DNA from: an uncultured Treponema sp.
Lineage (GTDB): Bacteria > Spirochaetota > Spirochaetia > Treponematales > Treponemataceae
Reading direction: 5' to 3'
Length of the DNA stretch: 64,000 nt
Assembly: GCF_946187725.1 (NCBI RefSeq)
Contig: NZ_CAMHSK010000009.1
Location: 1 to 64,000, forward strand
Shown here: one piece after another, positions 34,365 to 50,198 of the stretch
Layout of the letters: the number at the start of each line of letters is the position of its first letter
Position numbering within the stretch: the stretch's first letter is position 1
Made by a program: the position numbers and the translations under genes
The notes under the pieces: model-generated
Seen by the model: only the letters and a program-made list of their open reading frames with translations
Database searches by the model: none
Told to the model about the DNA's origin: nothing

Positions 34365-35756
34365 TTACTTGTTGTACTCGCCGGCGACAGAGGTGTATTT
34401 TGTTGTGCCTGTTGGGTCGGCGGCGGCGGGTGCTATTTGTTCGGCGTATTTTTTGCTTAATTTGTCTATCTGGGTGAGCAGTGCTTTGTCGTAGGTTGTG
34501 GATTTTCCTGATGTACTGTCCGAAACATATGAGTTAATCAGTTTTGAAAGAATTTTCACATCTTCGTCTGTGTATTCTTTGCTTCCGTCCTGCGGGAAAA
34601 TCGTGTGGAAGAAGGTACTTGCGCTCAAGAATGAACCGATTGGCTGAGGATGCGTATCATCGCCAGAATCATAATAGCTGACTCCGTTCGTTTTGCTCAA
34701 ATCGTAGAAAGCTTCTCCTGCCGGGGCGATGAGGGCATTGTATTTCTGTGCTTTGTCCAGATAGCATTGTGTGAATTCGGCTGTCCGGTCATCGCGCACT
34801 GAATATTTTGGCCATGTCGCATAGTAAACGAGTTTTGCATTCGGGTTGTGTTCGAGGATTTTCGGAACAAGGGCTGCTGAACCGCGAGTGAGTTTGTCAT
34901 CGGTAAATGAGCCGCAAATGTCCTGCATTACGATATAATCGAAATTCCCTGCTTTGATTGCGGTTTCGGTGTTGTGTGCTGTCGAATGATAAATCAGGTT
35001 TTTGCCACCGAAGGTTACGGCTGTCGCGTTTACATTATGTCCGCGGAATCGTGAAAGTCCTTCAAAGACTGACCACATATTGTTGTAATAGGTCAGTGAA
35101 TTTCCGATAAAAAGAACATTTGTCGCTTTTCCGAGGCTTTCGAGTGTCCGTGATGTGTCGGGCGGAAATACTGAGATTTCAAGGAGTCCGCAGTAGTCGC
35201 CGTTGTATTGTTCGACAAGAACTCGAACCCAGCGCGATTCTTTGTTTTCAAAGTGGAGTGTCTTTGCTGAAAGGGTGCCGTCTTTGACTTCGCAGATGGT
35301 CATCCATGATAAGCGTTCGATGGAATCAGGGCTTGAAATTCCGTCTTTTTCCATTGAGAACTGAATCTTGTAATGAACAGGATATGCGTCCGGGTAAGAT
35401 TCTTCTGCATCCTGACCGCAGCCTGGAACTATTCTTATTGAGTTAAAAGATTTGACTGAGCCTAAATCGATTGCGAACCACGGTTTTTTGTCTCCGCCGG
35501 TCGTGTTTGCCAGTGCATAAGACTGAACCGAAGTGCTTCCGTCTGTAAGGTTGTTGACCGAAACTGGTGTGGTTTTCGACTGTCGCAAATTTGAGCTTGC
35601 ATAGCCTTTTACGGCCGTATAATTTTTCGAATTTGCCAAATCATCTGGAAGTGAAGCGTAAACAACTGACGATTCTTCTTCTGATGAACCGCATGAGCAC
35701 AGGCCGAGCGAGAGAAGGCAGCCTGCACAAAGACTGAAAAGTGTGACTTTTTTCAT
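34365..35756 (-). CDS. SGNH-hydrolase lipoprotein with discoidin-like domain
   Basis: A 463-residue lipoprotein: signal peptide with LGLCSC (Cys22 the likely lipid site). Residues about 45-200 look like an F5/8 type C (discoidin/CBM32-like) beta-sandwich: WFAIDLGSVKSFNSIRIVPG and RWVRVLVEQYNGDYCGLLEISVF. Residues 210-410 are an SGNH/GDSL hydrolase: VLFIGNSLTYY with Ser220, then GDDTHPQPIG with the Asp-x-x-His end (Asp366/367, His369). It probably deacylates a carbohydrate it binds outside the cell. Its promoter and a LacI-type operator are visible upstream. Confidence 0.85.
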   Translation of the reverse strand: MKKVTLFSLCAGCLLSLGLCSCGSSEEESSVVYASLPDDLANSKNYTAVKGYASSNLRQSKTTPVSVNNLTDGSTSVQSYALANTTGGDKKPWFAIDLGSVKSFNSIRIVPGCGQDAEESYPDAYPVHYKIQFSMEKDGISSPDSIERLSWMTICEVKDGTLSAKTLHFENKESRWVRVLVEQYNGDYCGLLEISVFPPDTSRTLESLGKATNVLFIGNSLTYYNNMWSVFEGLSRFRGHNVNATAVTFGGKNLIYHSTAHNTETAIKAGNFDYIVMQDICGSFTDDKLTRGSAALVPKILEHNPNAKLVYYATWPKYSVRDDRTAEFTQCYLDKAQKYNALIAPAGEAFYDLSKTNGVSYYDSGDDTHPQPIGSFLSASTFFHTIFPQDGSKEYTDEDVKILSKLINSYVSDSTSGKSTTYDKALLTQIDKLSKKYAEQIAPAAADPTGTTKYTSVAGEYNK

Positions 35757-35841: not shown

Positions 35842-36005
35842 GAAAAAATGTAAAAAAAAAGTCATTTTTAGTCAAAAAAGTGCTAAATTATGACAATTCT
35901 TATATTTTTCTTGCCATTTTGTGAAAAAATTTGCTTGTTTTACAGGAAAATTCATAATAATATGTGAAAGATATAAAATTTTGCCGAAAATTTAAGTATA
36001 GATTG

Positions 36006-36193
36006 AATGTCGAGTTTTGTTGCACTGACATTGCAAAAATGGTGCACTACCAGAAAAGAGACTGTTGTTCAACACGGTTGCGCGTAATAGGTATCTGACT
36101 CGCTAACGCTCGCACGCGCAAAGTGTTTCACAACAGCCCTGCTTTTCTTCCCGTGCCCCATTTTTGATATTACTGTCAAGCAAACTCGACATT
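36006..36193. repeat. Long imperfect fold-back element A
   Basis: A 188-base near-palindrome inside the 729-base gene-free stretch 35757-36485. Nested stems: 36006-36017 with 36182-36193 (12 bp, perfect), 36026-36030/36174-36178, 36035-36042/36158-36165 (8 bp), 36052-36058/36142-36148 (7 bp), 36062-36068/36130-36136 (7 bp), 36071-36075/36123-36127, and 36078-36085/36114-36121 (8 bp), closing on a 28-base loop. No open frame of note. It could be a MITE-like element or a structured RNA. Confidence 0.75.
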
Positions 36194-36227
36194 TTTCTAT
36201 TCTATGCTCATAAAACCGTCTAATGAC

Positions 36228-36431
36228 GAGTTTTGAATTGGTCAGGTATTGCAAAAAACGGCGCGAGGGAGCGAAACGGCTTACGAAAACACTCGTTTTG
36301 TGCTGCCGCGCAAGCGGCAAATGTATATAGTTACAAGCACAAAACGCGTGTAGCAGGCTAGCCTGCGGTTTCGATAAGCCGTTATCACGACTGGGAGCCG
36401 TTTTTTATGCAGCCAGTAAATTTCAAAACTC
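36228..36431. repeat. Long imperfect fold-back element B, upstream of the giant gene
   Basis: A second nested structure. Stems: 36228-36237/36422-36431 (10 bp), 36253-36262/36397-36406 (10 bp), 36275-36288/36369-36383 (14 bp, one bulge), 36294-36304/36336-36346 (11 bp), hairpin GCCGC-GCAA-GCGGC (36305-36318), and palindrome GCAGGCTAGCCTGC (36353-36366). Its left end (CGAGTTTTG, later ATTGCAAAAA) matches that of element A, so they are probably two members of one family in the same direction. It ends 54 bases before the ATG at 36486. Confidence 0.75.
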
Positions 36432-36485
36432 AACATTCGAGCTGATAGAAAATTAAAAAAGTTTGTCCGTTCTTCGGAGGATTCT

Positions 36486-39400
36486 ATGAAAAAAGTGTTG
36501 CCGAAAGTTTTTGCTGTTACAACTGTCTTTGCTAAAATCGGATTTTTTGCAATTTCACTCTTTGCGCTTGCTTCCTGCGGTGAGGATTCAGGTCTTGGTT
36601 CATCTGTTGATACCGAGCCTCCGAGTCTTACCATAACTTATCCGCCTTCATCAGCGGTAGTTAACGGCTCATTCGTTTTTTCAGGAACGGCCACTGATGA
36701 CAAGCAGATTGCTTCGGTGAGTATTTCTGTCGCAGATTCTCTTGGAAAGGAAGTTTATAATGTGGAAACGATTCCAGAGAGAGACGGAAGCTGGAGTGTC
36801 GAGCTGAACAAGTATGATTCTTCAAATCCTGCTTATTACAACGGCTGGCAATTTGCTGACGGTACATATAAAATTTCTGCGATTGCTTATGATAATGCCG
36901 GCAGAAAGTCGGGACTGATTCCTCATACGCTTTCTGTGGACAATACGCCGCCTGTTCTGGTTCTTACAAAGCCAACCAGCGTCGGTTCTGATGACGCTCA
37001 AACTTACGGTCAGGCCGTTCTGCTTCAGGGTTCTGTATCAGAAATGTCAAACGGCGGAAAATTCAATCTCACTGTTGATTTTTACAACGAAAACGGCAAA
37101 TATCTTCTTTCAAGTACTTTCGAGAACATAATTGATATGTCTAGCGCGAATCCGCTTACAATCGCGCAGTATTATCCAGAAAGTGCGCGTCCTTCTTCTG
37201 AGAGTGATGCGAACTGGGAAAAATGGAACAATTACAAGACAATTTACGGCATCGATTACATTAAGGCTTATGAAGAGTATCGTGACGGAAAATCGAGCCA
37301 GAAGCCGGATGATAAGACTTTCTATTTCACTGTTACGGCAAATGATACTGCATTGAATTATACAAACAAAAAGTCACAGGAAGGAACTGGCAGCGGTAAT
37401 GCGACTTCGGTTTACTATCGCGGAACTCCTGAAATGCTCAAGCTCATTGAGGGCAAATCGATTCAGAATTTCTCTGTTCTTTCGCTTCAAAACTATCTCA
37501 ACAAAACTGATTCAACATACGCTGACAATGCAGATTTGAAAAAGATTCTCGATGAGGCGGCGAGTGTAAGTGCTAAACTCGAAGATTCTTCTTCACGCAC
37601 GCTTTTGGATTCTTCTAAGGATATTTCTGATTCAATCAAAAACACTGACACAAAAGACGGTTCGGTCTACCTTAATTTCCAGGTGAACCCGCTCAACAAT
37701 CCGACTTATTCTATTAACGGCTATCTTGTTGACGAGTCTAAAGTTAGCGAAAATGAATATTCGAGCGGAACTGAAGAAGGTGTCAGTGCGGGCTTCCATC
37801 GTTACTTTATGGATTCTAATCTCACTGTGAGCGTAAGTCCTGGACGCGATGAAACTCAGCTCAAACCTGCTACAGTTTCTTTCTTTATGAACAACACCGA
37901 TCCTGCTTCAACAGACGACCAAATCCTTGTCTGGACATGGAATAAAGAAACAGCAATCGCATACGCAATGAAAAAGAATTCTGTCGGAAGGGAAGCAGCA
38001 ACTGCGGCAATCGAGGCTCTGACGGCTGCATCTACCGAATACCGCTACACACCGACTCGAAGCGAGGCAATTCTTTCAAGCATGAGCATTGATACAACTC
38101 TTGGCGAAGAAGATGGCCTTGTGAGCGGAAAAACATACATTTTGTCGGCTGAAGGCGAGGACAATGACGGAAATGCCCTTGTTCCTGTAAAAACTGCCGG
38201 TTACGGAATTTGGGCCGCAATGAATGCCGAACCTCCTGAGGTCAGTTTTGGCGATACGGACAGCACGACAAACACGAATCTTGCGCAGGATTCTGTAATT
38301 AACTCTATAAGCAGGGAGTCACCGTTGCACTTTACGGGAAATGCGCTTTCTGCAGTTGCATTGAATGAAAATGACGGCCTTACCTATGCCGTTACTTTGA
38401 CTGATTCTTCTGATTCAAAACGGACTGTCACAATTGAAGGAACTGCTGCTTTTTCAACAGAAGATACAAGAAATCCTTTCAATTATGCATGGAATTTTGA
38501 TTTCCCAGCTGCAACCCTCTCAGAAGAGAAATTTGCTGAAATTCAGGAAATCTACGCAAATGAAGGCCGTTACAAGCTTGAAATCTTTGTCTGGGGAAAA
38601 TCTGTCGGCGGAAAATCAAAAGAAAGCCGCTCACTCATAGTTGATACCAAAAAGCCTGTCGTACGAAACCTTTCAGTCACTAATTCTTATGCGAAAAACG
38701 GAGTCACTTACATAAGCGGAAAGTCAGATTTTAAGATTTCCGGCTCTTCAAGTGATAACTATGAGCTTGCTTCGACTGTATGGAAAGTTTCTGGAACCGA
38801 TAAAGACGGAAAACTGATTAAAATCGAAGGCGGCATCGAAAAGAGCGAAAACTGGGAAGTTACAGTCACTTCCGAACAGCTTAAAGATTTCGTTTCTGTA
38901 GACGAAATTTCGGACATTACGGTTTCTGCGTATGGAACTGACATCGCAGGAAATGTTGGCGAGGAAGCGGTTCTTTCTATTGAAATTGATGCGACTGCTC
39001 CTGTTTTAAAATCTGATAAAATCGGCGGTACGGCATATTCTGGAAACGGTAGCTGGCAGAAAAGCACGACTATTGGCGTTGAGGGCGAAATCACCGAAAA
39101 TCAGAGTGGAGTCAAGGCGGTTTACTATCAGATTGAACCTTCTGATTCAGCAAGCGATTTTGTCAGAATGACAAGCGAAAATGCCGCAAATGTGCAGCAT
39201 GGCGGCGTGATTTATACTGTTTCAGGTGATTCAAGCGATTCCTTTACTCAGACACTTGAATTCAAAACGGGCACAAGCACCCTCAGATATGCGATTGCCG
39301 ATAATCTTGGCAATGTTTCTGAAGTTTATGAGCGCACGATTAAAACCGATTCTTCATCACCAGTCGTAAGCGAGCTTGAAAGCGGAAATCCTGAGCGCAC

Positions 39401-42400
39401 ATCATTCTCAACCGCACAGTTCGGAAACAGCGCATCAAAATTCTCTTTCGCATACTACATTTCTGATTCAGAGAGCGGCGTGAATGCTGATTCAATTTCT
39501 GTAAAAGTTAACGACAAAACGGTCTCTGCTTCGGATGACACATACGGCACATTGCGAGCTGATTATATAGAAGAAAAAAGCGCATATCTTGTAAAAGTCA
39601 CCCTCAAAGATTCTGAATTCAACGAAAATGACCTTTACACCGTGACTTCAAATGTGAGCGATGTGGCAGGAAATTCTGCACAGAATCAGGTCGGAATCTT
39701 CAGCATTGACAGGACTCCACCTCTCGTAAAAATCAGACAGGAAAGCGGAAGCAATCTTTTTGTTCGTGAGGGAAAGACTGTCAGTGCTACCGTGAGCGAT
39801 GTCGGCGGAATCTCTGAAATCACATGGGCTGTATTTGAGAAAGGCGAAAATGCTGACTATGATTCAAACCCGAATCCTGTAGAAACGGGAACTGCGGAAG
39901 CGGGAACTAGCGCGGACATAACTGTTCATTTTGATAAAAAGGCTGAGGACGACACAACTTATATCTTCGAAAGTGATAAGGAATATGTAATCTGCGTAAA
40001 AGCAAAGGATGAGGCTGGAAACGAAGGTGCTTATTCAGCTTCAAGCGCGTATATTGTTGACCGTGACGGCCCGATTTTTGATGATGAGCATGACGGCCTT
40101 AAAGGAAGCGACTGGTTCAATTCAACCACAATCGTTGTTTCTGGAAAATGGAATGATGGCTCAAAGGGCAGTGGTGCGACAACTCTCTATTATCAGCTCA
40201 ATGGAGAAAATGCGCTTACACAGGAAAACTACGAGGAAGTCGGAAAACCTGTCGCAATCGATTCAAAAGGTAATTTCAGCGTGAACATTGCCGATTTTAA
40301 GAGCAGTGATGCAAACAAATTGCTTTATGTTGCAGTTGACCTTGTTGGCAATGTTTCTGAAGTCAAAGAGCATGTAATCAAGGTTGATACGAGCAAGCCG
40401 ATTTTCAGGGATGCAACGGTTGATTTACAAGGAAATTATCCTGAGCTGACTGTTGAGACTCAGGAAGCAATCAAAGATGACGAAAAGACCTTTAAGGTTG
40501 CGGTCTGTGATACAGGCAGTGGAATTACAAACTCAGAGTCACAGAAAAAATTCTCTGCAACGGTAGCAGGTCTTAGTGAAAATCCTGCCTTAGAGCGGCC
40601 GATTTGGATTAGCTATGAGCCTGATGAGACTCCTGCAAGCGGATACCAATCTTCGGGTGTTGTAACTGTTACAATCAAGAAAAATCTCATCAATGCTTTG
40701 CAAGAAGGTGTTGCGAACGAAGTTCTGCTTACCGCAGAGGACAATGCGGCAAACTTTACTACGACAACAATCGGCTACATCAAGACCGATGTTTCGGCTC
40801 CGCGTGTTACAGTTCAGCTTGAAAGCGGCAAAAATCTCTATGTAAACGGCCAAAAGACCGTGAATGCCACAATCACTGATCAGGGCACAATCAAAAAGAT
40901 TGAATGGGCTGTGTTCCAAAAGCGGGAAGACAGAAAATACGATACAGATGGAATTACGCCAGTTAAGAGCGGAGAATTGACTGGAAATGCTATTACAAAC
41001 AGCCCATCGGTTACGGTTGATTTTAATGAAAAAGTCGATGAAAATTATCTCTTTAAAGATTCAGAAGAATATGTAATCTGCGTAAAGGCAGACGATACTG
41101 CCGGAAACTCAGGCGTTTACGAACTCAAGACCGGCGACAACGGAAACTTGTACGGCGGCGGCATTTCAAACGTATATCGCGTTGACCGCACAGGCCCGGA
41201 TTTGAGCGAAGACAAGATTTCTGATGCTGGTTATGACTCATCAAAATGGCTTAACGCAAATGTACTCACTGTAAACGGAACTTGGACTGATTCATACGGA
41301 GCTGGTTCTTCTGTTACAGGCAGTGGTGCAAGTGCTCTCTATTATGTGCTTACTCAGACAGAAATTTCTGAAATTTCTGCAAGTGCAATTGCAGGCAGCG
41401 CACTCAGAAAGACTGTCGCAATTGACGATAACGGCACATACACTACGAACATTTCAGGATTCAAGACAGGAAACAACTATCTCTATTATGTTGCAAGCGA
41501 CTATGCGGGAAATCTTTCTGCAGTTAAATCACATACAATTAAGATTGATACCAAGGCACCTGATGCTGTATCGGATGTTACTGTAAACGAAAGTGCGGTC
41601 GATTCAGCAAATTCATTCTACACGAATAAAACTAAGGCTCTGACCAATCCAGTAGATGCAATGTCAATTTCTTTCACTGTGGCTGATGAAACTGGCGGTA
41701 GTGGAATTGACACAAATAGAGTTTATGTCCTTCCATATAAGAAAGTCTCAAATGAGGAAAATGACAATACAGAAATTGCTGGAAATAAAGCAGATCTTTC
41801 TTCTGGAACAAACGGAACCTTTACCTTCAGCATTTCTTCTTCAAAAATCGAGAATTCTGGCAGTGTTTATGCGCGAATCTACGATAAAGCCGGAAACGCA
41901 AGCGATGTGAACCTGTTTGCCTTTGTTGTGGACACAACATCTCCACAAATCCAGAACTATACGGTTGCTGACGAAAAGCCTGGATTTGCGGCATACAAAA
42001 AGACAAAAGACGGTGATGAAAATCATTTCTATGTACACAGCGGAAATTCTCATACCTTCACTCTTTCAGGGGTTGCAACCGACAATCTCGGAATTGAAAA
42101 AGTTGAGCTTACGCTAAAGGATTCAGCTGGTGCGGTTCTTTCTGGCTACCCGAAAACAAGTTCAGATGTTTCAAACTGGAAGTTTGAGGAAGAGTCTCTT
42201 TCAGGTGTTGCTTCTGCTTTAATCGAGGTAACTGACAAGGCGGGAAACACGGTGGAACAGACCATTGCCTTTACACAGGATGTTACTTCACCTGTCGCAA
42301 AACACGAATATGACGCTAAGAAAAAGGATTTGTACTTCCGTGTGGGCGAGTTCGACAATGATCTGGATGAAATCAAAAAACTGGTAACTGGTGCAACAAC

Positions 42401-45400
42401 TCTGGATAATAACCTTGATAAAGATGTTGGCGGCAAATACAGTGCAGGAACTTGGGGAACTGCAAGCACAATCACAATCCGCGGTTACTGGACGGAAGAA
42501 GGCTCAGGGGTCAAGACGATTTACTATAAGATTTTCAACGATGTACCGACAGCAGAGCAAATTACTGAATTTAACACCAAATATGCACAGACAGGGGAAA
42601 GCGACGGAAACTTTGCACCTTGTGCTGAAGTGACAAAGCGCGTTGTTTACACAAAATCCCTGAATGATGATGGAAGTACAAATGAACAGGGAACGGCAGA
42701 AATTCCATATTCATTCAAGACCGCAATTCCAGGCTTCAATTCTGAAAAGAATTATCTCCTTCTTGTAGCAGTTGATAATGTCGGAAATGCAGCGATTGAC
42801 ACTTTGGGAGCTGACAAAGCTGATGGTGTAACAACGGATGTTACTTCGGAAAACTGGAACTCTGGCCTTGCCGCATTCTCGCTCAATGTGGACACCGTGG
42901 CTCCAAGCCTCACTTCAAGCACATCAGGCTCTCAGTATACGAATAAAATCACCCCAATCAAAGTTTCCTTTGGTGACACGGATGAAGCAAAGGGAATTGT
43001 AACGGACGCTTCTTCTGGAGTTAAGTCTGTCGTTCTTTCAATCGAAGATGTTGCAGATTCAAGCGTCACTGTAGAAAGTTCTGAACTTGTAGAAGATTCA
43101 ACAGATAAAACAAAAAAATACTGGAAGGCAACGATTCCAACGGACATTCTTTCTAAACTTTCAAGCGGAACCTATAATGTAAACGCCACAGTAAAAGATA
43201 ATGCTGGAAATAAGGCAGATAGTACAATCTTCACGCTTCAGGTTGATACGGATGCTCCAACTGTCAGCATGGTCACTCCTACTTACAACGCAACAACGGC
43301 AAGCGCAGTAAACGGCAAAATCTCCGTAAAGGGAACGAGTGAATACACAGGGGCTGCACCAAGCAAATTTGCGCTCTATTATACGACAACAGAACCAAAA
43401 TCAACTGCAACAAATGAGAGCGGAACTCCACTTTCAGCTTTGACTCCAATCACACTTGACGGAACTACATCTTCTGCAACAGAAATCACGGATTTGAGCA
43501 AAATCACCAGCTGGGAGATTAAAAACTTTGATTCTTACGCGGTATTCGGTGATGACACGACAAGTGCTGCAAAAGACATTTACATCGTGCCTGTCGTTTA
43601 TGATGTTGCGGGTAACTGCAACATTTATCGCGAAGAAGTTACAGAAACTACAAATGGCGAAACGGTAACTCAGACTGTAACAAGAAGCTACAGCTACACA
43701 GAAGGCACAAACTTCTTCAAGTATAGCGTAGACAAAAATTCTGACCGCCCGATTATCACTCTCGGAAACTGCGATGTAAGCGGAACAGCGTTAAAGAGCA
43801 CATCAAAGGCTTACGGCACAATCGAAGACGACGACGGACTTACAGGACTTCATTTGTTCTATATTGCAAAGGGAAATTCTGTTCCGTCTGCATTCCCGAC
43901 TGTAGAAAACGGCTCTGTAACATTGAATGGCTGGAAAGAATGCCCGCTTACTTCGGGAAGCTGGGATATTGATTCTGGTGTGGAAGGTCATTTCTCTTAT
44001 TATCTTTATGCGATTGACGCTGAGGGCGGAAAATTCTGGTCTACAGCGGAAAGTGCACTTTCACAGATGTATGTTTACAATGGAGTGAATGACAAGAGCG
44101 AAAAGAAAGACGAGAAGGTGGGACTTTCATTCAGTGCGGACTTGAACCCGCCGGAAATTGAAAGCGTTGAAATCGCTCACAAATCACTTCCTGCTGACTT
44201 TGTTGCTCAGGGCAATGAGACAGGCTGGAGTGCTGTAACTGAAACATTCGGTCCGACAGATAAATCTTTGTATCTCAAAGTCGTTGTTTCGGAATTCATC
44301 GGTTTGAAGGAAAAAGATAACCTCACAGAATCCGACACGACATTGCTTGCTCGCCTCTCAATTCCAACTGTTACAATCGGCGGAACAAATGTTACGCCAA
44401 ATCTAAAATCTGTTGCTTCTGAGACAAAATCAAAAACTGTCGGGGATAAAACTGATACGACATACTACACATTCCTCTTTGATGCAATTGATTTGTCAAC
44501 GCTCAATTTGACAGGCGCAAAGACTGCAAAAGTAGTCGTGACTGATAAATCAGGATTTACGGGGCAGGGAACAATCGGTATCAACTACGACCGAACTGCT
44601 CCAAGCATCAAGATTATCTCTCCGACTGCGGCAATTTCTGATGCGGTAATTTCTGCGACAAGCGTAAAGGGAACTGCATTTGATGATTATTCTTCAATTC
44701 AGAAACTTGAATATGTAATTCCAGCAAACGGTCAATCGTATACAACCGACTCTGACAACTGGATTACAATCGGAAGCAGCACCGGCACCTGGGAAATCGA
44801 ATTTGATTCAGGAAGCACGGAATCTCCATCAAGTCTTCTCTATTATGCGGCAAATCATGATGATTATGTTGGTGTTGAAGAGGTCTCTGAGGGACTTGGA
44901 ATTTATGCAATTCCGTTCTATTTCAGGACAACTGACTCTGTTGGAAATGTTGAAGTCCATAAAACTTACAGCGAAAAATCGGGTGAATCTTCTGTGAGCA
45001 AGCCATTCATCGTTTACGCAAATCCTGATGGTGGTAAGCCGAGCGCATGGATTAATGCCCCGGAAACTGGAATCACAACAAGCGGAACCGTCACTATTTA
45101 CGGTGGTGCAATGGACAATATCAGCGTTAAGACTGTTTGTGTTCAGATTGACGCAAACGGCGACGGTGTTATTAATGATGACGACTATACTTATCTTATG
45201 GCTACCAATGAAGGTGAAACACAACCGAATTATGAGGTATTTGGGCTTGAGGCTGGAAGTCTTGTAGAATCGACTGTAAAAGATGGGGAAAAACAGAACG
45301 ATTGGTACATCAAGGCTTCAGGCACAAACAGCTGGAAGGTAATTCTCAACACGAATAAGATTCCTTCTTATGAAGTTTCGGCTGGAGGTTCGGGGACAAC

Positions 45401-48400
45401 TGTTTCAGGCATAACTTTGGAGAACGGAAAAAAATATCTTCTCGTGCGGGTTCGTGCAATAGACGCTGATGACAACACTAGAAAATATACTAATCCGAAT
45501 GTTGTTAAAATTGACAATGTTGCTCCATATTTTAAGAACCTCAAGCTCGTTCAGTATGGAAAAAATGCCACTGCAAGTGTAAGCAAAACTCCTGTCACGG
45601 AACGAGAGTATGTTTCGGGTATGTACATCAGCAACATTACTGCAGAAAAGAATGGTACATGGTACCTCTATGCTGAAGTTGAAAGTCATTCTGATATTAA
45701 GAGTATCACGGCGGACACCCAGGCTTCTGAAACTGCGACGGTAATTCCTTTGTCAGACACGACAACATTTGTCTCAAATACGGAAAAAGTATATGCCACA
45801 GGTAGCGGAACATCTTACAAATTGCTCATTCCGTTGAATACAACTGAGTCTGGTGTTATTTATTCGATGTTGAAAGCTGATAATGTTAGCGATGGAGCAC
45901 CTACAGGCGAGCAAACAATCAAAATCAACATTGACTCAACAGCACCGAGTCTTTACACGACTGGCGGTTCTGAGACACTGGATGCCACTTCCACAAATGA
46001 TGGACAGGGAACCCTGCGAATCAAGAGCCAGAACAAGATTCTTGGTACAAATTCTGAAAGCAATGCTGTAATCGAAAACTCAGACGGCTACTTCTCACTC
46101 GGTGACACTGTTAAGGAAGCTGGTTCAGGCTTGGCTTGGCTTGCCTTCTATTTTGAAAATGACATCAAGGGCATGGTCTATGATCCGATGATTAAGGTCT
46201 CTGACAGCACTTACGGTGGAACGACTTTTGCGGCAAGTTCAGAAAATCTTTCGAGCGGAAGCGTTTACATCAACTCTGACAATCTTGCTGCTCTTTATTT
46301 GACAGACGTAACTCGTGGTTCTGATACGACATTCTCTCTGACAGCAGCAAATGACCATGTTCGGATTGGCGGTCTTGTTAAAATCGGTGGAACTTACCAC
46401 ACGATTAGCGGCGTGGACGAAAGGACTGTTACATTCACACCGGCAGTTTCGACTTCATTCACTACTGTTGAACTTATTTATGCTCAGGTTGTTGACCATG
46501 CTGTAACCGAGAATATCGTAGTTGATTATGATGACAATGATATTGGAACTGAGCGAATCGAAAGCGATGACGGCGACGGAATGTGCGAGAACCTTACCCA
46601 GCAGGGCTCTTACTACAACTGGAGCGCAATGGTTGATTCAAACAATATTCCTGACGGCACGACATATATCCGCCTGGTTGCAATGGACAATGCGGGCAAC
46701 CTCTCTCACGGAAAAATTGCCTCAATGGTTGCAAACAACCGTCCGCGTCTCACAAAGGTCTTCATCGGAACTGACTTGAACGGCAACGGCAAGTATGACT
46801 TTGATGCAGATGATGGAGATGCACCGGTCGTTTCAACAAGCAATAAAACCCGCACAAAGAGCGGCACAAGCTTTGGAGAATTCAACTATTACACCGCATA
46901 CAACACCCGAAGCGGCGCTGCCCAGTCAAAAGTCACTCTTGATTCTAGTGCATTCAAGGTAATCTCAGGCCTTTGTATCGTTCCTGAATTCACCGGCGGC
47001 AACGGAAGCCTCAAATACACCCTGACAAACGGCAGTGATTTGAATCCATATGCAGGCGGCGAATTGAAGGAAATGGTTCCGCGAAATTCTTCTACTGCAA
47101 GCGATGCAACTATGGAGAAGAAGGGGGAATCTGATACAAATTACTATATCAACAATGTCGGAAAACTCTCGCTTTTCGGAAACACGGCAATAACTGACGG
47201 TGACAATAAAAACGCCGTTGCTTACGGAATTAGTGATTCGGAAAGCGGAAACAACTATAAGGACTTCGGCGGAATCGTAATCGCTGATGGTAATGCTGTA
47301 ATTTCGGGAAGCGACGGTGCAACAAACAATGTAAAAGTCACATTCTTCGACAATACTGACAGCACAGACGGTGCGGCTCATGCAGACGGACAGTGGGCGA
47401 CACTCGTGATTCCTGTAACAATCAAATCAAGCGACACGACCGTTCCACAGCCAAAGATTAAGCCGTTCCATTGGGCAGATTCAACTGACAACAGCCTCTA
47501 TGTTAAAAAAGATTCAAACAATGTATATCAGGCTGCTTCTGCAACAGAAAAGAACGGCGTGATTGCAGGACACATTGAACTTGAAGGTGCTTTGCCGACT
47601 GGTTCAAACTTGACGGCTGATTTGCCGAAAGTATCGGGCATCATAAAGGTTGAGGGAACGATTTTTGATGATGTCCGACTTGAAGCAATCAGCATGAGCA
47701 TATTCGGTGGGGCAAACACAAAAGTTGCTTCGTATACAAGCGGTGCTTGGGGAACCGCAACTTCTTTGCCGACAGGACTTGTTTCATTCACGGCAGTTGA
47801 TGAGGACATGAGTCAGAAAGGACACACAGTTAAGTACACGGCCGTCATTGATACGGAAAAGCTTTCTGTAAGCGGATACCCTGTCGGAAAAGCGCAGTGG
47901 ATTACTGTGGGCGCAAGCGACTGGAAGCACAACTATGTGACTTCGAACGCTAGTGTTACAGGCGGAAGTGCGCCATTTACAGTTGGTGACGGTACTTCGA
48001 CTGCTGTAACACCTGCTCAGACAAAAAGTGCAACAAACACAAACTGCTATCAGATGGATGTCGTGCCGTATGTTACGGAAATTGTGACACATTTGAGTGC
48101 ATTCTCCGGAACGGCTCACAGTGTTTACGCACGCACAGCACATGGTCACTATCCGTGTTATGAAGGGGAGACAATTGAGTTCAAGGGCTACAACCTTGGA
48201 AGCGGAAAGGCAAAGGTCGTGATTCAGGGAATGACAGCTGGTGGCGATGCACTTTCGGAAGCAAACAAAATTACTCTCACAGCTACAAGCACTGGAAAAA
48301 CAGGTGCTGTTTCCGGGGCAATTTCTCTTAGCGTGAACGGAATTCCTGCGATGAACAACATCAACACAAACAATGCATGTGGTTCATACACGACAGAAGA

Positions 48401-50198
48401 TACAGGAAGGGCTTACACCGATGACAATTATGCTCACTGTTACAACCGCCAGCCGAACGGAGTGAACAACAACACACTCACCGACGACCTTGAACTTGAT
48501 GTATGGCAGTTCAAGAATGCAGCTAAACCTGTAAACGGTGGAGCAGAGCGCGTAACGATGAAGATTCGCCCAACTGACGGAACTCCAGGATTCAGCTATG
48601 CGAACTCGGTATTGTATTTCAGTATGCCGGGATATAATGCTGACCATACCAATGACACTGCATGGCGTTCAGAAAATGGTACAATTAATGGTACATATGC
48701 TTCTCAGATACCATTCGGAATGAACTACGGTGGTTTCAGTCATAACTCATTCACATTTGATAACCAGGGATATTCTTATGGTGCGGCAATGTGTACAGAC
48801 ACAAATAATGCATCTCAGTCAGCATTTTTCCAGTTCTTTAGTAAGGAAACTCCACTTCCTTACAATTCTTACGACCAGAACATGAATTATGCAAACGAAG
48901 CAAATGCCAGCCGACTTGATTCTTCAACGATGAATGTCGGCACAGATAATTCTCAGAACTGGCAGTGCAACATTAACCGAATTCAGTCAATCAGCATGGA
49001 AACTTCTAATTTAAATGGAACTGCTGCAGCAACTGATGAGGCTCCTGTTTATGTTTTCATGGCATATTATGATGCAATTGTTAAGCAGGTTCGTTTCCGA
49101 TGGGGAACGGTCGGCGGCTATTCTGACTCAATCGACGGAAAATCAAATAATAATAATCAAGACACATTCAGCACACGAAAAAACAATGCTTACGGTCTGG
49201 ATGATATTCATGACTCGAAGTACACAGGCCGTGCAGAAGATGGAAAAAATGCTGGTGGATGTCGTCCAAGCTATCTTGCAGATTCTTTCGTTAAGTACAG
49301 CAACACAAATAATGGCGGCATCCCAATCCAGGTAATTGCTGCCAGCGGCATGGCTTACAGCGGTATACACAATTCTATTTACAATAAAATGGAGTACACC
49401 GCCGGACAGTATGTTTCTCTTTCAATTCTTGGAAAAGATACTGCAAGTCCAACAGCCTGTGTATTCTGGTATGACGGTTCCAAACTCATGATGGCCTACA
49501 ACAGCTCACCGACCACAAGCAATTCATGGACTTACAAAACTGTCGACACCGACGGCGGCCTGCATGTTAAGTCGGCCGTTGACAGTGACGGAGGAATCCA
49601 TCTCGCTTACTACACTTCAAACGGCGGTAACTTGAAGTACGCATATTTGAGCGGTGTTACAGCGGACCCACAGATTGCTACAGTTGATGCGAACGGTGCC
49701 GTTGGTACAAAGTGTACGATTGATGTTGCAAAAGTTGGCGGAAATCAAGTTCCGTACATCACATATCAGATGATTGGTGGTGTTTACACTTACAACGCAA
49801 AGATTGCTTACCGAACAAACTTTACTTCAACGACTGTACCAAATGGTGCGGACAGCAAAGATATGTTCACTGGTGACTGGGAAGTTTCTGTAATCCCAAC
49901 GGAATCAAGCCGACTTTTGAACGACGACACAATCAATGTCGGTCTCTGGCGAGATTCAAACGGTGCGGCACAGGCATTCACATCAAATGCTTACTGGAAA
50001 GAAAGCGACAAATGGTTCAATGCTGCAACGAGTGCAACTCTCGGAACTCTCACTAACGGTGAAGATGGTGCGACTGGTGTTTCTAATAACACAATGAATG
50101 TCGGAAACCCATCGCTCATCTACGGTAACAACACCGCAAACCCAATCGTCGGTTACGGCATTGAGTCTGGTGCAATCGAAATGGCCCAGAAAAAATAG
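36486..50198 (+). CDS. Giant (4570-residue) lipoprotein of tandem Ig-like modules
   Basis: A 13.7-kb gene for an exported lipoprotein: signal peptide with lipobox LASC (Cys31). It consists of about 20 tandem beta-sandwich modules, each boundary marked by a D-x-T/S-x-P phrase such as VDTEPPSLTI, IDRTPPLVKI, VDTDAPTVSM or IDSTAPSLY, and by YxxAxDxAGN strands, as in bacterial Ig-like/adhesin repeats. The last ~650 residues differ: WxYKTVDTDGGLHVKSAVDSDGG and LKYAYLSG suggest a beta-propeller-like domain. GGAGG lies before the ATG. The likely role is a long surface adhesin or fibre. No sortase or autotransporter signal was seen. It is unbroken despite its length, so it is under selection. Confidence 0.85.
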   Translation: MKKVLPKVFAVTTVFAKIGFFAISLFALASCGEDSGLGSSVDTEPPSLTITYPPSSAVVNGSFVFSGTATDDKQIASVSISVADSLGKEVYNVETIPERDGSWSVELNKYDSSNPAYYNGWQFADGTYKISAIAYDNAGRKSGLIPHTLSVDNTPPVLVLTKPTSVGSDDAQTYGQAVLLQGSVSEMSNGGKFNLTVDFYNENGKYLLSSTFENIIDMSSANPLTIAQYYPESARPSSESDANWEKWNNYKTIYGIDYIKAYEEYRDGKSSQKPDDKTFYFTVTANDTALNYTNKKSQEGTGSGNATSVYYRGTPEMLKLIEGKSIQNFSVLSLQNYLNKTDSTYADNADLKKILDEAASVSAKLEDSSSRTLLDSSKDISDSIKNTDTKDGSVYLNFQVNPLNNPTYSINGYLVDESKVSENEYSSGTEEGVSAGFHRYFMDSNLTVSVSPGRDETQLKPATVSFFMNNTDPASTDDQILVWTWNKETAIAYAMKKNSVGREAATAAIEALTAASTEYRYTPTRSEAILSSMSIDTTLGEEDGLVSGKTYILSAEGEDNDGNALVPVKTAGYGIWAAMNAEPPEVSFGDTDSTTNTNLAQDSVINSISRESPLHFTGNALSAVALNENDGLTYAVTLTDSSDSKRTVTIEGTAAFSTEDTRNPFNYAWNFDFPAATLSEEKFAEIQEIYANEGRYKLEIFVWGKSVGGKSKESRSLIVDTKKPVVRNLSVTNSYAKNGVTYISGKSDFKISGSSSDNYELASTVWKVSGTDKDGKLIKIEGGIEKSENWEVTVTSEQLKDFVSVDEISDITVSAYGTDIAGNVGEEAVLSIEIDATAPVLKSDKIGGTAYSGNGSWQKSTTIGVEGEITENQSGVKAVYYQIEPSDSASDFVRMTSENAANVQHGGVIYTVSGDSSDSFTQTLEFKTGTSTLRYAIADNLGNVSEVYERTIKTDSSSPVVSELESGNPERTSFSTAQFGNSASKFSFAYYISDSESGVNADSISVKVNDKTVSASDDTYGTLRADYIEEKSAYLVKVTLKDSEFNENDLYTVTSNVSDVAGNSAQNQVGIFSIDRTPPLVKIRQESGSNLFVREGKTVSATVSDVGGISEITWAVFEKGENADYDSNPNPVETGTAEAGTSADITVHFDKKAEDDTTYIFESDKEYVICVKAKDEAGNEGAYSASSAYIVDRDGPIFDDEHDGLKGSDWFNSTTIVVSGKWNDGSKGSGATTLYYQLNGENALTQENYEEVGKPVAIDSKGNFSVNIADFKSSDANKLLYVAVDLVGNVSEVKEHVIKVDTSKPIFRDATVDLQGNYPELTVETQEAIKDDEKTFKVAVCDTGSGITNSESQKKFSATVAGLSENPALERPIWISYEPDETPASGYQSSGVVTVTIKKNLINALQEGVANEVLLTAEDNAANFTTTTIGYIKTDVSAPRVTVQLESGKNLYVNGQKTVNATITDQGTIKKIEWAVFQKREDRKYDTDGITPVKSGELTGNAITNSPSVTVDFNEKVDENYLFKDSEEYVICVKADDTAGNSGVYELKTGDNGNLYGGGISNVYRVDRTGPDLSEDKISDAGYDSSKWLNANVLTVNGTWTDSYGAGSSVTGSGASALYYVLTQTEISEISASAIAGSALRKTVAIDDNGTYTTNISGFKTGNNYLYYVASDYAGNLSAVKSHTIKIDTKAPDAVSDVTVNESAVDSANSFYTNKTKALTNPVDAMSISFTVADETGGSGIDTNRVYVLPYKKVSNEENDNTEIAGNKADLSSGTNGTFTFSISSSKIENSGSVYARIYDKAGNASDVNLFAFVVDTTSPQIQNYTVADEKPGFAAYKKTKDGDENHFYVHSGNSHTFTLSGVATDNLGIEKVELTLKDSAGAVLSGYPKTSSDVSNWKFEEESLSGVASALIEVTDKAGNTVEQTIAFTQDVTSPVAKHEYDAKKKDLYFRVGEFDNDLDEIKKLVTGATTLDNNLDKDVGGKYSAGTWGTASTITIRGYWTEEGSGVKTIYYKIFNDVPTAEQITEFNTKYAQTGESDGNFAPCAEVTKRVVYTKSLNDDGSTNEQGTAEIPYSFKTAIPGFNSEKNYLLLVAVDNVGNAAIDTLGADKADGVTTDVTSENWNSGLAAFSLNVDTVAPSLTSSTSGSQYTNKITPIKVSFGDTDEAKGIVTDASSGVKSVVLSIEDVADSSVTVESSELVEDSTDKTKKYWKATIPTDILSKLSSGTYNVNATVKDNAGNKADSTIFTLQVDTDAPTVSMVTPTYNATTASAVNGKISVKGTSEYTGAAPSKFALYYTTTEPKSTATNESGTPLSALTPITLDGTTSSATEITDLSKITSWEIKNFDSYAVFGDDTTSAAKDIYIVPVVYDVAGNCNIYREEVTETTNGETVTQTVTRSYSYTEGTNFFKYSVDKNSDRPIITLGNCDVSGTALKSTSKAYGTIEDDDGLTGLHLFYIAKGNSVPSAFPTVENGSVTLNGWKECPLTSGSWDIDSGVEGHFSYYLYAIDAEGGKFWSTAESALSQMYVYNGVNDKSEKKDEKVGLSFSADLNPPEIESVEIAHKSLPADFVAQGNETGWSAVTETFGPTDKSLYLKVVVSEFIGLKEKDNLTESDTTLLARLSIPTVTIGGTNVTPNLKSVASETKSKTVGDKTDTTYYTFLFDAIDLSTLNLTGAKTAKVVVTDKSGFTGQGTIGINYDRTAPSIKIISPTAAISDAVISATSVKGTAFDDYSSIQKLEYVIPANGQSYTTDSDNWITIGSSTGTWEIEFDSGSTESPSSLLYYAANHDDYVGVEEVSEGLGIYAIPFYFRTTDSVGNVEVHKTYSEKSGESSVSKPFIVYANPDGGKPSAWINAPETGITTSGTVTIYGGAMDNISVKTVCVQIDANGDGVINDDDYTYLMATNEGETQPNYEVFGLEAGSLVESTVKDGEKQNDWYIKASGTNSWKVILNTNKIPSYEVSAGGSGTTVSGITLENGKKYLLVRVRAIDADDNTRKYTNPNVVKIDNVAPYFKNLKLVQYGKNATASVSKTPVTEREYVSGMYISNITAEKNGTWYLYAEVESHSDIKSITADTQASETATVIPLSDTTTFVSNTEKVYATGSGTSYKLLIPLNTTESGVIYSMLKADNVSDGAPTGEQTIKINIDSTAPSLYTTGGSETLDATSTNDGQGTLRIKSQNKILGTNSESNAVIENSDGYFSLGDTVKEAGSGLAWLAFYFENDIKGMVYDPMIKVSDSTYGGTTFAASSENLSSGSVYINSDNLAALYLTDVTRGSDTTFSLTAANDHVRIGGLVKIGGTYHTISGVDERTVTFTPAVSTSFTTVELIYAQVVDHAVTENIVVDYDDNDIGTERIESDDGDGMCENLTQQGSYYNWSAMVDSNNIPDGTTYIRLVAMDNAGNLSHGKIASMVANNRPRLTKVFIGTDLNGNGKYDFDADDGDAPVVSTSNKTRTKSGTSFGEFNYYTAYNTRSGAAQSKVTLDSSAFKVISGLCIVPEFTGGNGSLKYTLTNGSDLNPYAGGELKEMVPRNSSTASDATMEKKGESDTNYYINNVGKLSLFGNTAITDGDNKNAVAYGISDSESGNNYKDFGGIVIADGNAVISGSDGATNNVKVTFFDNTDSTDGAAHADGQWATLVIPVTIKSSDTTVPQPKIKPFHWADSTDNSLYVKKDSNNVYQAASATEKNGVIAGHIELEGALPTGSNLTADLPKVSGIIKVEGTIFDDVRLEAISMSIFGGANTKVASYTSGAWGTATSLPTGLVSFTAVDEDMSQKGHTVKYTAVIDTEKLSVSGYPVGKAQWITVGASDWKHNYVTSNASVTGGSAPFTVGDGTSTAVTPAQTKSATNTNCYQMDVVPYVTEIVTHLSAFSGTAHSVYARTAHGHYPCYEGETIEFKGYNLGSGKAKVVIQGMTAGGDALSEANKITLTATSTGKTGAVSGAISLSVNGIPAMNNINTNNACGSYTTEDTGRAYTDDNYAHCYNRQPNGVNNNTLTDDLELDVWQFKNAAKPVNGGAERVTMKIRPTDGTPGFSYANSVLYFSMPGYNADHTNDTAWRSENGTINGTYASQIPFGMNYGGFSHNSFTFDNQGYSYGAAMCTDTNNASQSAFFQFFSKETPLPYNSYDQNMNYANEANASRLDSSTMNVGTDNSQNWQCNINRIQSISMETSNLNGTAAATDEAPVYVFMAYYDAIVKQVRFRWGTVGGYSDSIDGKSNNNNQDTFSTRKNNAYGLDDIHDSKYTGRAEDGKNAGGCRPSYLADSFVKYSNTNNGGIPIQVIAASGMAYSGIHNSIYNKMEYTAGQYVSLSILGKDTASPTACVFWYDGSKLMMAYNSSPTTSNSWTYKTVDTDGGLHVKSAVDSDGGIHLAYYTSNGGNLKYAYLSGVTADPQIATVDANGAVGTKCTIDVAKVGGNQVPYITYQMIGGVYTYNAKIAYRTNFTSTTVPNGADSKDMFTGDWEVSVIPTESSRLLNDDTINVGLWRDSNGAAQAFTSNAYWKESDKWFNAATSATLGTLTNGEDGATGVSNNTMNVGNPSLIYGNNTANPIVGYGIESGAIEMAQKK

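Follow-up and report, generated by a model that had tools for sequence, protein, structure and literature searches.

The interior of a MITE is usually regarded as the leftover of a shrunken insertion sequence (IS). Among short bacterial repeats, RUP depends on an IS acting in trans, and BOX varies by repeated boxB modules between fixed ends. The bcr1–bcr3 repeats of the Bacillus cereus group have been reported to show MITE-like behavior and often to lie within transcripts (PMC3446304, PMC2267715), and REPs are units of 20–40 bp that carry GTAG/CGTC tags (PMC3733652). Here, we describe a pair of fold-back units, E1 and E2, in a 64,000-nt stretch of DNA from an uncultured Treponema sp. (contig NZ_CAMHSK010000009.1, positions 1 to 64,000; hereafter, the window). 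No published description of such a Treponema element was found in the open-access literature. E1 and E2 sit in the gap between a divergent gene pair, and the features of the locus are as follows.

34365–35756, minus strand: divergent neighbor ORF, 463 aa (ORF list)
35951–35979, plus strand: promoter-like site 5' of E1 (prediction only)
36006–36437, no strand assigned: probable composite MITE (E1 + linker + E2), with a 99% identical twin elsewhere in its own genome
36006–36193, no strand assigned: E1 fold-back, 188 bp (nested inverted structure and folding)
36006–36019, plus strand: terminal inverted repeat at the left of both E1 and the composite, AATGTCGAGTTTTG (genome-wide end matches)
36073–36125, minus strand: E1-type conserved core segment (aligned; 16 of 146 genomes of the genus)
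36180–36193, minus strand: right terminal repeat of E1, GCAAACTCGACATT
36194–36221, no strand assigned: E1–E2 linker (kept in other composites)
36222–36437, no strand assigned: E2 fold-back, 216 bp, terminal repeats AATGACGAGTTTTGAA and TTCAAAACTCAACATT (structure, folding and copies)
36251–36408, plus strand: E2 conserved structured core (covariance model R1, 179 bits)
36261–36271, plus strand: 5' half of the conserved base internal loop, GCGCGAGGGAG (columns nearly invariant in alignment A1)
36305–36318, plus strand: apical hairpin GCCGC-GCAA-GCGGC (helix 6 of the consensus)
36388–36399, plus strand: 3' half of the conserved base internal loop, CGACTGGGAGCC (columns nearly invariant in alignment A1)
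36486–50198, plus strand: giant ORF, 4570 aa, neighbor of the composite (ORF list)

The two nested fold-backs reported by a first-pass annotation of the window were found at their place, and their folding went far beyond that of shuffled sequences. The RNA folds of E1 and E2 reached −69.9 kcal/mol (z −6.96) and −94.7 kcal/mol (z −8.37), respectively, and in neither case was any of 200 dinucleotide shuffles as good; the arms of E1 are 88% complementary. The annotated length of E1 (188 bases) was borne out, while E2, given there as 204 bases, is better delimited as the 216-bp unit listed above. The matching left ends (AATGTCGAGTTTTG and AATGACGAGTTTTG) and the GCAA loop on its GCCGC/GCGGC stem were likewise recovered. 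Terminal inverted repeats of the AATGTCGAGTTTTG type bound the 188- and 216-bp units as well as the whole composite of ~432 bp, which is without an ORF. The AATGTCGAGTTTTG end has 14 exact matches across its own genome and, with up to two mismatches, 93 matches compared with 53 for a reversed control. The annotation had placed both elements in the same direction; the two elements stand, and their terminal repeats are near-symmetric, so that the repeats themselves do not assign a direction. When E1 is taken on the minus strand, E1 and E2 have a base motif in common (GC-GGAAG ... CTGGGAGC), suggesting opposite strands for the two cores, minus for E1 and plus for E2; common descent of the two cores from this motif is suggestive, not proven. 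A minus-strand match of model R1 on E1 (21.5 bits) was discarded as proof of homology, as the minus strand of E2 itself scores 27 bits because E2 is palindromically symmetric.

A 99% identical E1–linker–E2 composite was found in the same genome (G000:C1:136084-136512), where it follows another gene, its flanks are unrelated to those of the window copy, and a 6–8 bp direct repeat, TCTAAATA, borders it. The E1–linker–E2 order also occurs at G000:C7 and G000:C1:192k and in the genomes of other species (G051 and G084), and the linker (TTTTTCyATTyTATGCyCATA..) is repeated in the composites of G000:C7, G000:C1, G051, and G084. Further E2 copies in the own genome show 90–94% identity, and several of them belong to composites with a diverged E1. 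The ends of the composite reach to roughly GGTCnAATGTCGAGTTTTG. No target duplication was recognizable at the window copy itself, and its insertion is therefore deduced from the near-identical twin. Among about 20 elements in the frame of the window copy (AATGTCGAG, IS982-like), about 8, the 99% twin included, bear target duplications of 5–7 bp, and exact 5-mer duplications numbered 4 against 0.23 expected.

The window frame matches the ends of an IS982-family remnant of ~850 bp in the relative G085, which is bounded by TAGGTCAAATTTCGAGTTT and carries an IS982-like DDE transposase fragment (48 bits, below the cut-off of 130). This remnant was the only partner found for the AATGTCGAG frame, with no intact autonomous one detected, and the own genome, as searched without PF13612, gave no intact IS982-type IS. 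In relatives, the core also lies inside a second frame, CAGGGCAAACGCATTATAAA or CAGGGCTTCCGCATTATAAA (the CAGGGC frame). The flanks of 37 CAGGGC-framed copies agree at 7.6 of 10 positions, compared with 2.98 in permuted flanks (maximum 4.05 in 2000 permutations), and they do so at length 10 only, as is the case for a 10-bp target duplication. A search for CAGGGC end pairs 1–3 kb apart revealed no autonomous elements. Located through its transposase, an intact IS of 1,284 bp with ends CAGGGCAAACGCAT and 10-bp duplications is present in at least 11 copies in G145 (chromosome of 2,731,853 bp), and this transposase was assigned to NF033564 (ISAs1) with 349.7 bits. At three loci of G145 (L472, L475, and L478), the ISAs1 IS stands exactly at a MITE end with a 10-base spacer between them, and at L472 and L475 the ten bases of the spacer are repeated beyond the IS; this tandem MITE–10 bp–IS arrangement suggests that insertions favor the target duplication as a hotspot. 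At two loci of G073 (L168 and L242), the core lies within a possible third terminal frame, with ATCCCCTGAAGGATA-like ends.

Taken together, these data make it very probable that the composite is a non-autonomous transposable element (MITE) of two fold-back units, as the first-pass annotation had proposed in naming MITE-type elements. It is a short non-coding unit with terminal inverted repeats, its copies are multiple and dispersed, and its family bears target duplications of 10 bp in the ISAs1 frame and 5–7 bp in the IS982-like frame. The transposases of relatives have matching ends, in full for the ISAs1 IS and, for the frame of the window, only by way of the IS982 remnant. Most probably, a DDE transposase acting in trans would have cut and inserted the fold-back units by their ends.

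The search of related treponeme genomes proposed at the outset revealed further copies of both units: the E2 core of ~150 nt was detected by BLAST in 50 of the 146 genomes of the genus, and the E1-type segment in 16. Of 393 Spirochaetota genomes scanned with model R1, 28 carry the core, and every one of these belongs to a single family, the Treponemataceae. The own genome has six core copies and eight relatives have between 10 and 107 each, the counts coming from candidate-limited scans in which covariance-model E-values are rough; the copies are dispersed and lie between genes. The named hosts among the matches listed are gut and rumen treponemes (T. bryantii, T. ruminis, T. sp. JC4, and C6A8), together with many MAGs. 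The core pattern had no match in viral contigs, and no Rfam family was hit at the gathering threshold, with chance matches only when the limit was relaxed to E up to 10. In the single-contig genome G044 (G044:C1, L252–L257), about 20 of the 23 cores are no more than 60 kb from position 1, the point at which dnaA-, dnaN-, and recF-like genes start (identified by eye in translation); 400 kb sampled elsewhere on this contig held one full core and one weak match.

The relation between core and frame was further examined in G145, where MITE deletion derivatives of 149 and 100 bp have lost most of the core and bear 10-bp duplications all the same. These core-depleted elements still jumped, which argues that the core is cargo and that the ends decide jumping. 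In a tree of the cores the frames are mixed, with 13 label changes, although 2 would have been enough; the well-supported branches force few of them. The core has changed frames, and it is found in terminal frames that belong to two or more transposase families. Around frameless cores there were 8 direct repeats of at least 9 bases against 3.7 expected, a weak signal for a core that would move by itself. Insertions within cores were also seen: in the 335-bp MITEs of G145 (L448–L452 and L456), a second palindrome with ends GATGTCCAATAAG is nested in the core, and this nested form has multiplied, while E1- and E2-type cores at L126, L127, L136, L137, and L094 hold further inserted palindromes of the GCAGCACAGCTGCT... 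type in a Russian-doll arrangement.

The covariance-model check of the E2 core revealed massive covariation. Across 107 distinct sequences, 94.4% of the cells are paired and both-sided changes occur in 40 of 43 pairs, with a covariation score of 0.572 compared with 0.164 for shuffled alignments and at most 0.10 with slid partners; the fitting of this alignment to the model favors the structure. A MAFFT alignment of 27 sequences without model fitting gave the same picture (31 of 43 pairs). The core thus carries the compensatory base-pair changes of a structured RNA; its G-U usage, however, is not of the RNA type. G-U makes up 2.5% of its canonical cells with a G-U:A-C ratio of 1.7, compared with 8.7% and 9.5 for the RNase P of the genus handled alike. 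Between close cores (<8% divergence), one-sided changes outnumber double ones by 43 to 3, and two-sided changes grow with divergence. This pattern fits decay of single copies together with compensation in active lineages, and fits less well with single-step template switching (PMC8794818). In the intervals between tandem genes, the core stands in the transcribed orientation in ratios of 34:9 (p = 1.7e-4) and 27:10 (p = 0.008), in two sets that overlap and are built on simple, crude ORF calls; E1 had no such bias in a small set (4:4). The orientation bias points to an effect in transcripts, and the near-absence of G-U points to DNA.

On these grounds, we tentatively consider that the core may be a functional folded nucleic-acid module specific to the Treponemataceae, passed among the MITEs of unrelated DDE transposase families and selected for its fold, possibly as folded DNA. 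It would be a passenger module whose folded form is under selection in active lineages. Most likely, it would act in the transcript as a stable asymmetric hairpin that is tolerated chiefly when it lies in the direction of transcription, and would thereby lessen harm to the host or lengthen survival of the element; such a transcript-level role is possible rather than probable, the orientation evidence being indirect. The core might instead work as folded single-stranded DNA, a hairpin or cruciform that a replication or transposition protein, for example, would recognize. Its covariation is almost strictly Watson–Crick (helix 5 is 99.5% paired with about one G-U cell), the G-U deficit relative to RNase P is as expected of pairing at the DNA level or of template switching, and the cores of G044 cluster around oriC. 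This reading is somewhat doubtful, as transposition continued in derivatives that lack most of the core, the core is co-directional with tandem genes, and in a larger set G-U still exceeds A-C by 105 to 43. A less probable reading is the absence of any function, with template switching in replication homogenizing the arms and the cores as passive filler. Template switching is able to generate and preserve hairpins by way of compensatory substitutions (PMC8794818), and G-U intermediates are lacking in the core; it leaves unexplained, however, the invariant unpaired motifs and asymmetric internal loops and the presence of one core inside unrelated frames, and one-step copying of an arm is unlike the excess of one-sided changes between close pairs. 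We regard it as unlikely.

Many cores form a G+C stem between A-runs and T-runs just past stop codons, as dispersed bidirectional intrinsic terminators or insulators would, but the ISAs1-framed copies of G145 are without strong T tracts, other copies lie inside likely operons (panC-coaBC and trpBA), and the one weak terminator-like match in the region is away from the core, which makes this role quite improbable. The structured leader RNA of the 4570-residue gene that the first-pass annotation had offered beside the MITE reading, whether riboswitch-like or an attenuator, would suit the position of the composite directly 5' of the start codon. The window copy is plausibly in the leader transcript, because a promoter-like site was predicted at 35951–35979 and none between 36437 and 36486. 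Giant-ORF homologues were found in 30 of 59 genomes searched, yet among 19 further homologue loci a core lies within 1.5 kb in one only (G032), as an inverted pair ~590 bp upstream, and unrelated genes adjoin the five remaining copies of the own genome and more than 100 copies in relatives. With no conserved association between core and giant gene, a dedicated cis-regulatory leader is largely refuted by distribution and very improbable. ORFs of 3000–6000 residues related to the 4570-aa ORF are widespread in the genus, often several in a genome, and those in the own genome include G000:C9:91922 and G000:C31:5080. Integron attC-like or REP/REPIN-type sites moved by single-strand recombinases also come as folded palindromes with a conserved base motif, variable tops, and inverted pairs. 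The R and L boxes of attC were absent by inspection, however, no integrase or other protein was found to recur beside the cores, a core of ~150 nt without an invariant tag is unlike a REP, and the terminal repeats and fixed-length target duplications are those that DDE transposition gives; we give this reading hardly any credence. In the case of the window, the mobile composite was inserted upstream of the giant gene, probably within its leader, and an effect on that gene, while possible, would be incidental. The fold-back observation is confirmed, and its earlier interpretation is partly supported.

If the module reading is true, a shared cargo makes quite different small transposons successful within one bacterial family. 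The presence of one covarying core in the MITEs of at least two transposase families, at up to ~100 copies per genome, suggests that the interior is under selection. The strong covariation beside a near-complete lack of G-U is a warning for covariation-based RNA discovery, and the core offers a testable contrast among RNA-level selection, DNA-level folding, and template switching.

Among known systems, bcr1–bcr3 resemble the core as dispersed intergenic repeats of ~150 bp with a foldable conserved interior (PMC3446304, PMC2267715). They differ in that their host group is unrelated to Treponema. We know of no report of bcr1–bcr3 sharing an interior with the MITEs of a second transposase family. 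REP, BIME, and REPIN elements are likewise palindromic, intergenic, and sometimes in inverted pairs, whereas the Treponema element is much longer, follows no GTAG/CGTC tag rule, and has target duplications at its flanks. Of the ISs and MITEs of the ISAs1 family, an ISAs1 IS agrees with the CAGGGC-framed relatives in the first 14 bases of the ends and in the 10-bp duplications, but the interior of these relatives is the Treponema core and is not IS-derived. To the IS982 family, the window frame is linked through the remnant with its IS982-like DDE fragment, a match to that fragment only. BOX and RUP of Streptococcus pneumoniae are short interspersed repeats like the Treponema element, and BOX is modular and structured as well (PMC3049150); in the Treponema element, in contrast to BOX, whole cores are swapped between unrelated terminal frames.
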